From positions 1 to 38,691 of the forward strand of contig JAGWKM010000009.1 of NCBI GenBank assembly GCA_028865305.1: DNA of 38,691 nt, in the 5' to 3' direction. Origin of the DNA: Patescibacteria group bacterium (GTDB lineage Bacteria > Patescibacteriota > Minisyncoccia > UBA6257 > 2-01-FULL-56-20). Below are positions 14,328 through 18,214 of this stretch, one piece after another; the first letter of the stretch is position 1; every line of letters starts with the position of its first letter. A program made the position numbers and the translations under genes. The notes beneath the pieces were generated by a model. It did not search any database. It saw only the letters and a program-made list of their open reading frames with translations, and was not told where the DNA came from.

Positions 14328-15512
14328 ATGCCACATAAAAAACACGGCAAAAAGGGTGCCAAGCAGCGCCTTCAAAAACGGAATAAGCCAAAAAACGCCA
14401 AGCAAAAACCGCTTTCGAAATTCGAGAAGGCGGTAAAAGCGCATGCGGCGGAGATCAACGAGCTCATTGAACGCGGCCGGCCGCGCGGTTTCGTGACGGA
14501 TAACGAGATCCTCTACTATTTTCCGAAGATCGAAGACAATGTTGAATTGCTCGATGAGATTTACGACCGGCTCGAAAAAGCGGGCATCAAAGTGATTGAA
14601 ACGAGCGCGCTCATCGATTTTTCAAAAGACAAAGATGAGGACAAGTTTGACGATACGCTGGAGTTCGAGGGCGATGTGCCGGATGCGGTGCAGATGTACC
14701 TGAAGGAGATCGGCAAGACGCCGCTTTTGAACAAAGACGAAGAGCGGGATCTTGCGAAGCGCGCGGAAAAAGGCGACGAAGAGGCCCGCCAGCGGTTGAT
14801 GAAGGCGAACCTGCGTTTGGTGGTTTCGATCGCGAAACGGTATGTGAATCGGACGCCGCATTTGAGCATTTTGGACCTGATCCAGGAGGGGAACATCGGC
14901 CTTTCGCGCGCGGTCGAAAAATTCGATTATCGCCGCGGTTTCAAATTCTCAACGTACGCAACCTGGTGGATCCGCCAGGCCATTACGCGCGCATTGGCTG
15001 ACCAGTCGCGCACGGTGCGCATTCCGGTGCACATGGTGGAGACGATTTCGAAATACACGCAAGTGCGGCGGCAGTTGATCCAGGAACTTGGCCGCGATCC
15101 GTTGGCGGAAGAAATTGCCGCCGAGATGGGGATCGACGTGGACAAAGTGCGCCATATCCAGAAAATTTCACAGGAAGTCCTTTCAATCGAGACGCCGATC
15201 GGCGACGAAGAGGATTCCACCCTTTCCGATTTCATTCAAGATGAAAAGAATCCGACGCCTGCGCAGCTTACCGCCCGTGCCATGCTCCGTGATCTGATCC
15301 GTGAGATTATGATCGACCTTTCGGAGCGCGAGCAGCAAATTTTGAAGATGCGATTCGGTTTGGAAGATGGCGTGAGTCACACACTGGAGGAAGTCGGCCG
15401 CGCGTTCGGCGTAACTCGCGAACGCATCCGCCAGATCGAATCCAAAGCTCTTGAAAAGATCCGTGAACATGGCAAGGCCGAGGCGTTGGAAGGATTCGAA
15501 AACCTCGTTTGA
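14328..15512 (+). CDS. rpoD: RNA polymerase primary sigma factor (sigma70)
   Basis: [16 protein letters not shown]-type region 1.2, [56 protein letters not shown]. Confidence 0.95.
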
Positions 15513-15515
15513 TTT

Positions 15516-16181
15516 TTAATCTTTCAGAGGATTAGATTCGACGATCGTCGAATCTAATCCATTTTCTTCGTCCCGGAGGCTGCCGAGTTTTTTTATCGCA
15601 AAACATTCGACGCACTCCGCGATTTTCAGCTCGCGGAGATCGGCTATGAATCCATCGGGGATTTTCACGCGGCCTATCCAAAGACTTTTTTGTTTCATCG
15701 AAAACCCCATTTCATGCAATGCTTCGCGAAGCCATTGGCGTTTTGAACGTTCCCGTTCGGGGATATCGAATGAAACAGCTGTCATATGGCCGGATGGCTG
15801 TTTTCCGTAATCCGGGACGGGTAAAGCTTCGGATTGTCTTTTCAGCAGTATTTTCAATCGCCGTCTTCCCTTGGAAGTAATGAGGAACGACCTCTTTGAT
15901 TTAGCGGTTCGAGTTGTAATGAGCCCATCTTTCTTCAACCACTGGACCAGGTTTTTGCAGCGCGTACGGAAGCGCAATATTTCTTCCCCGTGCATAATCT
16001 TTTCTTCCAGCCAGCGCTCGTTCGCGATGTGGTGTTTTCGCGCTTGCGCAAGCATTTTCCCAAACGAATCCGGTGTGTAATTGCTCGTGAGCACTTCCAC
16101 TAATTCTCCCAAATTGCAGGCATGTTTGCTTAAAATCCGCAGGATCCTGATCGTCCATTTTCCCTTTGCAACTTTTTTCAT
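15516..16181 (-). CDS. wHTH + Cas2-like (PaaX-type) protein
   Basis: N-terminal winged-helix-like region, C-terminal VSFDIPERERSKRQWLREALHEMGFSMKQKSLWIGRVKIPDGF resembling Cas2/PaaX ferredoxin fold; last codons (GLDSTIVESNP) come from the palindrome. Confidence 0.7.
   Translation of the reverse strand: MKKVAKGKWTIRILRILSKHACNLGELVEVLTSNYTPDSFGKMLAQARKHHIANERWLEEKIMHGEEILRFRTRCKNLVQWLKKDGLITTRTAKSKRSFLITSKGRRRLKILLKRQSEALPVPDYGKQPSGHMTAVSFDIPERERSKRQWLREALHEMGFSMKQKSLWIGRVKIPDGFIADLRELKIAECVECFAIKKLGSLRDEENGLDSTIVESNPLKD
15529..15560. repeat. perfect 32-bp palindrome, copy 1
   Basis: ggattagattcgacgatcgtcgaatctaatcc equals its own reverse complement. Confidence 0.97.
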
Positions 16182-16222
16182 GTCCCCACTATAAACTCCA
16201 GATATTAAATTTTTATTAATTG

Positions 16223-16262
16223 ATTAGGATTAGATTCGACGATCGTCGAATCTAATCCTAAT
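16223..16262. repeat. perfect 40-bp palindrome, copy 2 (same 32-bp core)
   Basis: attaggattagattcgacgatcgtcgaatctaatcctaat. Confidence 0.97.
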
Positions 16263-16297: not shown

Positions 16298-18214
16298 ATG
16301 ACTTTGGATGAAGTGCGCGGGAAATATCTTGAATTTTTCAAGGCGCGGGGGCACGCGATCATTCCTTCGGCGCCGCTCGTTCCCGAGAATGATCCGACGA
16401 CGCTTTTTACGGGCTCGGGCATGCAGCCTTTGGTGCCTTATCTTTTGGGCCAACCGCATCCGGCGGGGAAGCGCGTGGCGGACTCGCAGAAAAGCTTCCG
16501 TGCGGAGGATATTGATGAGGTTGGCGATAATCGCCACACGACCTTTTTCGAGATGCTTGGGAACTGGTCCTTCGGCGATTATTTTAAAGCGGAACAATTG
16601 CCGTGGTTTTTTGAATTTTTGACAAAGGAGATCGGACTTGAGGCGCAAAACCTCTATGTGACCGTTTTTGCGGGCGATCGGGAAACCGGCATTCCGGCTG
16701 ACGAGGAATCGGTTGGGATCTGGAAAAAATTGTTTGCGGACGCGGGTGTTCCGGATGCGCAGTATATCGCACTTGGCTCTGAGGAGAACGGCAGCGCGGT
16801 TGGCATGCAGGGCGGACGTATTTTTTCATATGACGTGAAAAAGAACTGGTGGAGCCGCGCGGGTGTGCCGGCAAACATGCCGGCGGGGGAGCCGGGCGGT
16901 CCGGATTCGGAAGTGTTCTACGATTTCGGAACTCCTCATGATGAAAAATTCGGCAAAGAATGCCATCCGAACTGCGATTGCGGCCGGTTTTTGGAAATCG
17001 GCAATTCGGTATTCATGGAATATAAGAAAAATGAAGATGGCACGTTCTCAAAGTTGGTGCAACGCAATGTCGATTTCGGCGGTGGATTGGAGCGGATTGC
17101 GATGGCAGCAAACGGCGTTCCCGATATGTTCCTTGTAAACCATAAGGCGATCCTCGATCAAGTTGAAAAAGCGAGCGGAAAAAAATATCAAGGAGAGGAC
17201 CAGTATGCTTTCCGCGTCATCGCCGATCACATTAAAGCCGCAGTGTTCCTTTTAGGCGATGGCGTGCGTCCTGCCAATAAAGAGCGCGGCTATGTCTTGC
17301 GCCGTTTGATCCGCAAGGCCGTGTTTGAAGGGCATCGATTGGGCATGGATTCAGTGAAGTGGATGATCTCGGCTGGCGGGTCGACCATTACGTCGTATGC
17401 AGACCAGTATCAAAATCTCATCGAGCACAAATCGGAGATCGTGGCTGCACTCGAGGCGGAAGCGGCCAAATTCTTGGCGACGCTTGAAGGCGGTATGGAT
17501 ATTTTGCAGGAATTGATCCAGGCGCGGATGCATTCGCCCGTGCATGAAAAAACGATAACCGGTGAGGATGCGTTTGTGCTGTTTACAACCTATGGTTTTC
17601 CGCTCGAACTCACCCTTGAAAAGGCGAGGGAGGTTGGTTTTACGGTGGATGTAAAGACATTCCGTGAACTTTTTGAAAAACACCAGGAACTATCCCGCAC
17701 TGCTTCTGCCGGCACCTTCAAGGGTGGTCTGGCGGACCATTCGGAAAAGACGACGCGGCTGCACACGGCGCACCATCTGCTTTTGAAGGCGCTCCAGATC
17801 GTGCTCGGGCCGCAGGTGAAGCAGCGCGGTTCGAATATCACGAGCGAGCGGTTGCGGATGGATTTCAATTATGATGGCAAAATGACCGATGAGCAAAAAA
17901 AAGAAGTCGAACGGATCGTAAATGAAAAAATTGCCGAAGACCTGCCGGTCGTCCGGAGCGAAATGCCGCGCGAGGAAGCGGAGAAGCTTGGTGCCGAGCA
18001 TGAATTTGGCCAAAAGTATCCGGAACGTGTTTCGGTCTATTCCATCGGGCCGGAAGCGGCAGTGCCGGAACATCCGCAGTTTGATAAGGCGTTCTCGATC
18101 GAATTTTGCGGTGGTCCGCACGTGCGGCATACCGGCGAGATTGGTCATTTCAAACTGATGAAAGAGGAAGCTGTCGGAGCAGGAATACGTCGGGTTCGGG
18201 GAGTGGTTGAATAA
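16298..18214 (+). CDS. alaS: alanyl-tRNA synthetase, short form lacking C-terminal DHHA1/C-Ala region
   Basis: FTGSGMQPLVPYLLG, FFEMLGNWSFGDYF, editing motifs HTAHHLL and CGGPH; ends right after second additional domain. Confidence 0.93.
   Translation: MTLDEVRGKYLEFFKARGHAIIPSAPLVPENDPTTLFTGSGMQPLVPYLLGQPHPAGKRVADSQKSFRAEDIDEVGDNRHTTFFEMLGNWSFGDYFKAEQLPWFFEFLTKEIGLEAQNLYVTVFAGDRETGIPADEESVGIWKKLFADAGVPDAQYIALGSEENGSAVGMQGGRIFSYDVKKNWWSRAGVPANMPAGEPGGPDSEVFYDFGTPHDEKFGKECHPNCDCGRFLEIGNSVFMEYKKNEDGTFSKLVQRNVDFGGGLERIAMAANGVPDMFLVNHKAILDQVEKASGKKYQGEDQYAFRVIADHIKAAVFLLGDGVRPANKERGYVLRRLIRKAVFEGHRLGMDSVKWMISAGGSTITSYADQYQNLIEHKSEIVAALEAEAAKFLATLEGGMDILQELIQARMHSPVHEKTITGEDAFVLFTTYGFPLELTLEKAREVGFTVDVKTFRELFEKHQELSRTASAGTFKGGLADHSEKTTRLHTAHHLLLKALQIVLGPQVKQRGSNITSERLRMDFNYDGKMTDEQKKEVERIVNEKIAEDLPVVRSEMPREEAEKLGAEHEFGQKYPERVSVYSIGPEAAVPEHPQFDKAFSIEFCGGPHVRHTGEIGHFKLMKEEAVGAGIRRVRGVVE

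Follow-up and report, generated by a model that had tools for sequence, protein, structure and literature searches.

The locus described here raises the question of why one gene, lying between rpoD and alaS, should be bracketed by two identical perfect palindromes, and of what the gene and its palindromes could do together. The window (the whole stretch of DNA that was analysed, 38,691 nucleotides) contains the 32-bp perfect palindrome GGATTAGATTCGACGATCGTCGAATCTAATCC in two exact copies, at 15529-15560 and 16227-16258, against a chance expectation of zero in 100 dinucleotide shuffles. Copy 2 widens into a perfect 40-bp palindrome at 16223-16262. The pair flanks a minus-strand open reading frame (15516-16181, 221 residues), which we call cas2L. 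Copy 1 starts 16 nt past the rpoD stop codon, and the 32-bp core of copy 2 ends 39 nt ahead of the alaS start codon. The C-terminal cas2L residues LDSTIVESN are encoded by copy 1; because the homologous proteins of relatives stop just short of the palindrome (...GSLRH), this tail is the palindrome translated. The sequence-only reading had described identical palindromes at both ends of one gene, the first supplying its last codons and the second enlarged to 40 bp in the gap before alaS, and each of these points was borne out. The features of the locus are as follows.

14328-15512, plus strand: rpoD, open reading frame, left neighbour outside the unit; its homologs adjoin alaS in relatives.
15516-16181, minus strand: cas2L, 221 residues, N-terminal winged-helix region and Cas2-fold (PaaX_M) domain.
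15529-15560, no strand: palindrome copy 1, 32 bp, lying within the last codons of cas2L at its 3' end; placed by exact match and by the boundary against relatives.
16204-16219, no strand: AT-rich motif ATTAAATTTTTATTAA, between palindrome copy 2 and the cas2L start.
16223-16262, no strand: palindrome copy 2, 40 bp (32-bp core 16227-16258), upstream of cas2L.
15529-16258, minus strand: the whole unit as proposed, 730 bp from one palindrome to the other; the rpoD-alaS junction is empty in relatives.
16298-18214, plus strand: alaS, open reading frame, right neighbour outside the unit.

Analysis of the protein upheld the initial description of cas2L as a Cas2-like/PaaX-type gene. It matches PaaX_M (PF20803) with an E value of 6.4e-12 and Cas2 (TIGR01573) marginally, at 25.5 bits for a cut-off of 24.5, while its score against the full-length PaaX equivalog TIGR02277 is 13.4 bits for a cut-off of 264.55. 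PaaX_M was found in all 28 family members searched, with no match in these 28 to the PaaX N- or C-terminal Pfam domains or to a Y1 domain, and the cas2L profile did not match E. coli RayT. In the predicted structure (mean pLDDT 84) the N-terminal part is a helical/winged-helix region, and a ferredoxin-like domain is also present. The top Foldseek matches of the model were E. coli PaaX, Cas2 and PadR-type proteins, none of them with an E value below 0.001, and the fold assignment therefore leans mainly on the sequence profiles. The closest solved structure is E. coli PaaX (PDB 8a39), with which cas2L shares a winged helix and a central Cas2-like domain. Differences from PaaX are the length of cas2L (about 200 residues rather than about 300), the missing terminal domains, and palindromes that flank the gene and occur inside other genes. 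The Cas2-type aspartate, proposed earlier as a check, is present on the first strand as D139 and is invariant in 42 homologs. PaaX-type repressors also keep the corresponding aspartate, so D139 is no proof of catalysis. The Cas2 fold, the conserved aspartate and the marginal TIGR01573 match recall CRISPR Cas2, from which cas2L differs in its extra winged-helix domain. No CRISPR array is present at the cas2L locus and Cas1 was found in 0 of 41 genomes, the same search being positive in 9 of 14 control genomes; on this ground cas2L is not regarded as part of a CRISPR system.

The palindrome is dispersed. At three mismatches or fewer, the bin to which the window belongs (1.99 Mb, 8% contamination) holds 13 copies, four of them exact, with two at the locus and 11 elsewhere, and the contigs that hold them match the window in composition. 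The possibility that the palindrome is unique to this locus was thereby removed. These solo copies are intergenic, lie at stop codons, or run in frame within murD (L017). The AT-rich motif ATTAAATTTTTATTAA stands exactly beside four of them (L008, L009, L015 and L018) and as a variant beside a fifth (L013), on one side only, as it does beside the upstream copy at cas2L. The other cas2L homolog of this genome (L019) has a different perfect palindrome at its end and a decayed copy upstream, with one further solo copy of that palindrome in the genome; its layout is that of the window's cas2L with another palindrome sequence.

To evaluate the arrangement across the family, homologs were chosen by protein similarity alone. 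Of 41 relatives 23 were positive, and GTDB species genomes contributed 80 loci (among others from Liptonbacteria, Wolfebacteria, Sungbacteria, Giovannonibacteria, Jorgensenbacteria and Harrisonbacteria). There were 103 unique loci with full flanks; 147 other open reading frames from the same loci served as controls. Using search windows set after viewing the first locus set, a palindrome was detected at one or both gene ends in 83 of the 103 cas2L loci, and the GTDB set, which in part overlaps the first, gave the same picture when taken alone. Palindromes were present at the gene start in 61/103 cas2L loci versus 6/147 controls, at the gene end in 72/103 versus 21/147, and at both ends in 50/103 versus 2/147. 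Matching pairs occurred at 46 of the 103 loci and at none of the 147 controls, and palindromes with a CG[AG][CT]CG centre at 73 cas2L loci and no controls. A gene-end palindrome is absent at about a fifth of the homologs in these 103 loci. A scan of four stretches from relatives, each over its full length, gave 27 palindromes with this centre, of which 15 lay within 150 bp of a cas2L gene, although such surroundings make up 0.5-1.6% of the sequence. In these stretches palindromes with this kind of centre thus concentrate at the cas2L family, which answers the question of whether they bracket such genes in relatives, and conservation of the gene with unrelated flanks is not what was found.

PF20803 is present in 123 of 381 genomes of the phylum, with up to 11 copies per genome, and its best matches are bracketed less frequently: of 30, 10 have palindromes at both ends and six have matching ones. 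Four longer PaaX-like proteins of Patescibacteria (L204, L205, L215 and L220; 236-249 residues) have no gene-end palindromes and are probably ordinary regulators; bracketing is therefore not general to PaaX_M proteins. Three cas2L homologs (L145, L155 and L184), two of which (L155 and L184) have a gene-end palindrome, come from a bin titled Nanoarchaeota archaeon and represent either spread to archaea or mis-binned contigs. At seven further loci (L109, L111, L117, L120, L127, L135 and L150) cas2L occupies one conserved neighbourhood with differing palindromes, either because the site is a hotspot or because the gene is inherited vertically while its palindromes turn over fast; some of these loci share a conserved stretch of about 85 bp downstream of cas2L that may be a tRNA gene.

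Comparison of the palindromes themselves revealed a common logic. The centre is CG(A/G)(C/T)CG in 127 of 142, the palindromes are essentially loopless, and the arms are gene-specific, being common mainly to proteins above about 50% identity. Protein and arm similarity are correlated (Mantel r 0.14, reached by 0 of 2000 permutations). Among the differences between the paired palindromes of a gene, 35 are complementary changes affecting both arms, against 4.8 expected, and this excess indicates that symmetry is retained while the sequence drifts. Stem mismatches on the sense strand (25 GT and 39 AC) show no G-U excess, which argues that double-stranded DNA is the constrained form. At the level of sequence, bracketing across the family, gene-specific arms, retained palindromicity and co-variation of protein with palindrome are thus documented.

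The same data bear on whether the palindromes act in RNA, as transcription terminators (the earlier suggestion for the downstream copy) or as hairpins of another kind. The fold is very stable (z -7.3) and copy 1 scores as terminator-like on the plus strand, but terminator-like sites are as numerous as shuffled sequence leads one to expect, the stems have no loop, their centre is fixed and their arms differ from gene to gene, and one copy lies ahead of the cas2L start codon. Terminator identity was rejected for the lack of any excess over shuffles, and RNA-hairpin constraint for the missing G-U bias. Searches against known RNA families returned two chance-level miRNA matches only, far under the cut-off. 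We find the RNA reading scarcely credible, and the terminator suggestion falls with it.

Loopless palindromes of other kinds were also observed. Contigs C8 and C12 of one relative, G026 (L071-L107), hold several dispersed families with different centres, for example TATGTTACAGYGTACTAGTACRCTGTAACATA in about ten copies and another around CTTATTCGCGCGAATAAG, and no cas2L homolog was found near these families on the two contigs.

Relatives, examined in sequence stretches, were then compared at corresponding sites. The search for empty alaS-rpoD junctions was successful: in many relatives rpoD and alaS adjoin, separated by 8-227 nt that contain no cas2L, and longer gaps in G021 (584 nt), G010 (568 nt) and G023 (822 nt) likewise lack it. 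Subtracting the palindrome-to-palindrome unit from the rpoD-alaS gap of the window leaves about 55 nt. The junctions without cas2L therefore indicate that the unit (15529-16258) occupies an ancestral junction. A second unit, in G066, is missing where its flanking genes meet in G102 of the same genus; the G066 interval also carries further unrelated sequence, so that the difference exceeds the bare unit. Conversely, G066 lacks a solo that stands directly behind a stop codon in G102. The units of L124 and L126 are 89% identical over 796 bp, compared with 76% for syntenic DNA of the two genomes, and their upstream DNA is unrelated; the shared stretch continues about 50 bp beyond the upstream palindrome; on the downstream side each of the two contigs comes to its end.

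Solos within genes take the form of in-frame insertions of 10-11 residues. A methyltransferase gene of G422 contains a palindrome in frame, in a stretch (net 30 nt, residues GQVSHDREIL) that is absent from the orthologs of G420 and G421; compared with a solved MurD, the MurD of the window's own genome carries 11 inserted residues at the palindrome. Solo numbers are low, with 0-3 per family in the relatives examined and 11 in the own genome. One solo in the recG/glutaredoxin spacer (L326/L327, position 1501) is identical over about 41 nt between G420 and G421, while the spacer around it has diverged and aligns poorly. In one genome, two solos (L189:1499-1609 and L194:1499-1609) share 111 bp at 94% from the palindrome on; the last 53 bp or so of this stretch also form a separate repeat elsewhere in both genomes, and the empty-site comparison for L194 is cut off by the end of the contig. 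Solos, their in-frame insertion, and the presence or absence of units and solos at syntenic sites can all be read directly from the sequences, which in this sense show mobility both of the palindrome alone and of the whole unit. Neither 50,697 phage records nor 72,556 plasmid records yielded a cas2L homolog, and PHROG contains no cas2L match; a phage or plasmid origin of cas2L was rejected on these absences.

These site comparisons bear on an account in which cas2L would act as a PaaX-like transcription factor, with the palindromes for operators and the solos for a regulon, the upstream copy autoregulating the gene, the downstream copy serving looping or a roadblock, and the sites spreading via ordinary mutation and gene transfer. 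PaaX-type repressors and PaaX-like proteins bind palindromic operators, and PaaX is the nearest solved structure. In 28 of 44 spacers, a count that has no background estimate, the upstream copy is followed by a promoter-like hexamer, and the conservation of the recG/glutaredoxin solo at orthologous sites would also fit a functional binding site. A regulon does not, however, predict solos in frame inside coding genes and directly behind stop codons. Because palindrome pairs flank both sides of cas2L and units and solos vary at syntenic sites, autoregulation alone accounts neither for bracketing nor for presence and absence, and we consider this account unlikely. The promoter-like hexamers mean that autoregulation may coexist with mobility. 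The suggested autoregulatory operator may therefore be one role of the upstream copy.

Movement of the palindrome alone is also compatible with an unrelated enzyme, either a RAYT encoded elsewhere or host replication and repair acting on hairpins, moving palindromes that cas2L merely carries or binds. Host repair or replication could spread palindromes without cas2L, the complementary double changes would also follow from hairpin-templated correction, and G026 has its other loopless families away from any cas2L. Against this stand the close gene-specific pairing of cas2L with its own palindrome, which such an enzyme leaves unexplained, and the result of a RAYT search in G066, G102 and G026, where a single E. 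coli RayT query, which a divergent RAYT could escape, matched nothing at E 10 in 1.9 Mb. We regard an unrelated enzyme as highly unlikely.

The explanation that we favour, and judge likely from the sequence evidence, is a two-part, REP-like mobile unit consisting of the gene for a DNA-binding protein, cas2L, and a cognate palindrome that both flanks the gene and exists as solos. The first part would encode a protein with a winged helix and a Cas2 fold; the second would be the loopless palindrome with the CG(A/G)(C/T)CG centre. Recognition of the palindrome by its own protein, probably as a dimer, is well supported by the sequence evidence. More tentatively, the Cas2 fold might nick or otherwise process the palindrome when extruded as a cruciform or hairpin, which would lead to copies at new sites, and the upstream copy might also autoregulate the gene. 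The low solo numbers, the perfectly conserved solo of G420 and G421 and the fifth of homologs that have no gene-end palindrome count against this explanation. The sequence-only reading had envisaged a self-propagating or domesticated palindrome element using a Cas2-fold enzyme; dispersal, bracketing and the empty junction agree with it, and catalysis of the spread by cas2L is the part that we infer.

Comparison with known systems places this unit close to the REPtron, in which REP palindromes accompany a TnpA-REP/RAYT gene (PMC8266576, PMC2817692). Both have one gene flanked by short palindromes that are also dispersed genome-wide and mostly intergenic, a palindrome particular to each gene, and a physical association of gene and repeats. 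In contrast to the REPtron, cas2L has a winged helix and a Cas2 fold without an HUH/Y1 tyrosine transposase domain, its palindromes are loopless with a CG..CG centre and low in copy number, and the flanks read for the 13 window-family copies showed no GTAG tetranucleotide adjoining the palindrome. The cas2L unit works like a REPtron, yet is not one. Rickettsia palindromic elements, of about 150 bp (review PMC10969869), likewise sit in frame within unrelated protein genes of a reduced genome, whereas the cas2L repeat measures 30-50 bp and brackets a partner gene. Short dispersed palindromes are also known as CGTC-tagged REPs, which have no known dedicated transposase gene (PMC3733652); as compared by description, their CGTC is a tag at one end, whereas CG(A/G)(C/T)CG is a centre.

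The family is large in the ultra-small Patescibacteria and apparently undescribed; no published description of such units was found in the literature searched, which covers subscription papers incompletely. That it represents a class of mobile palindromes, widespread in Patescibacteria and propagated by a winged-helix/Cas2-fold protein without Cas1 or HUH/Y1, is a proposal to which we give slightly less than an even chance. If true, it would give the REPtron a Cas2-based counterpart and the Cas2 fold a new role outside CRISPR, and the element would be of a new kind if the Cas2-fold protein were shown to move the palindrome. A dispersed palindrome family of Patescibacteria is now assigned a partner gene, and a non-HUH protein is placed in a REPtron-like role. 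Stand-alone 'Cas2' genes of Patescibacteria match CRISPR models though the examined genomes lack Cas1. The testable claim that follows for the Cas2 fold outside CRISPR is that it recognises perfect palindromes and may also process them. With its many pairs of protein and palindrome, the family would constitute a natural recognition code that is open to in vitro testing.
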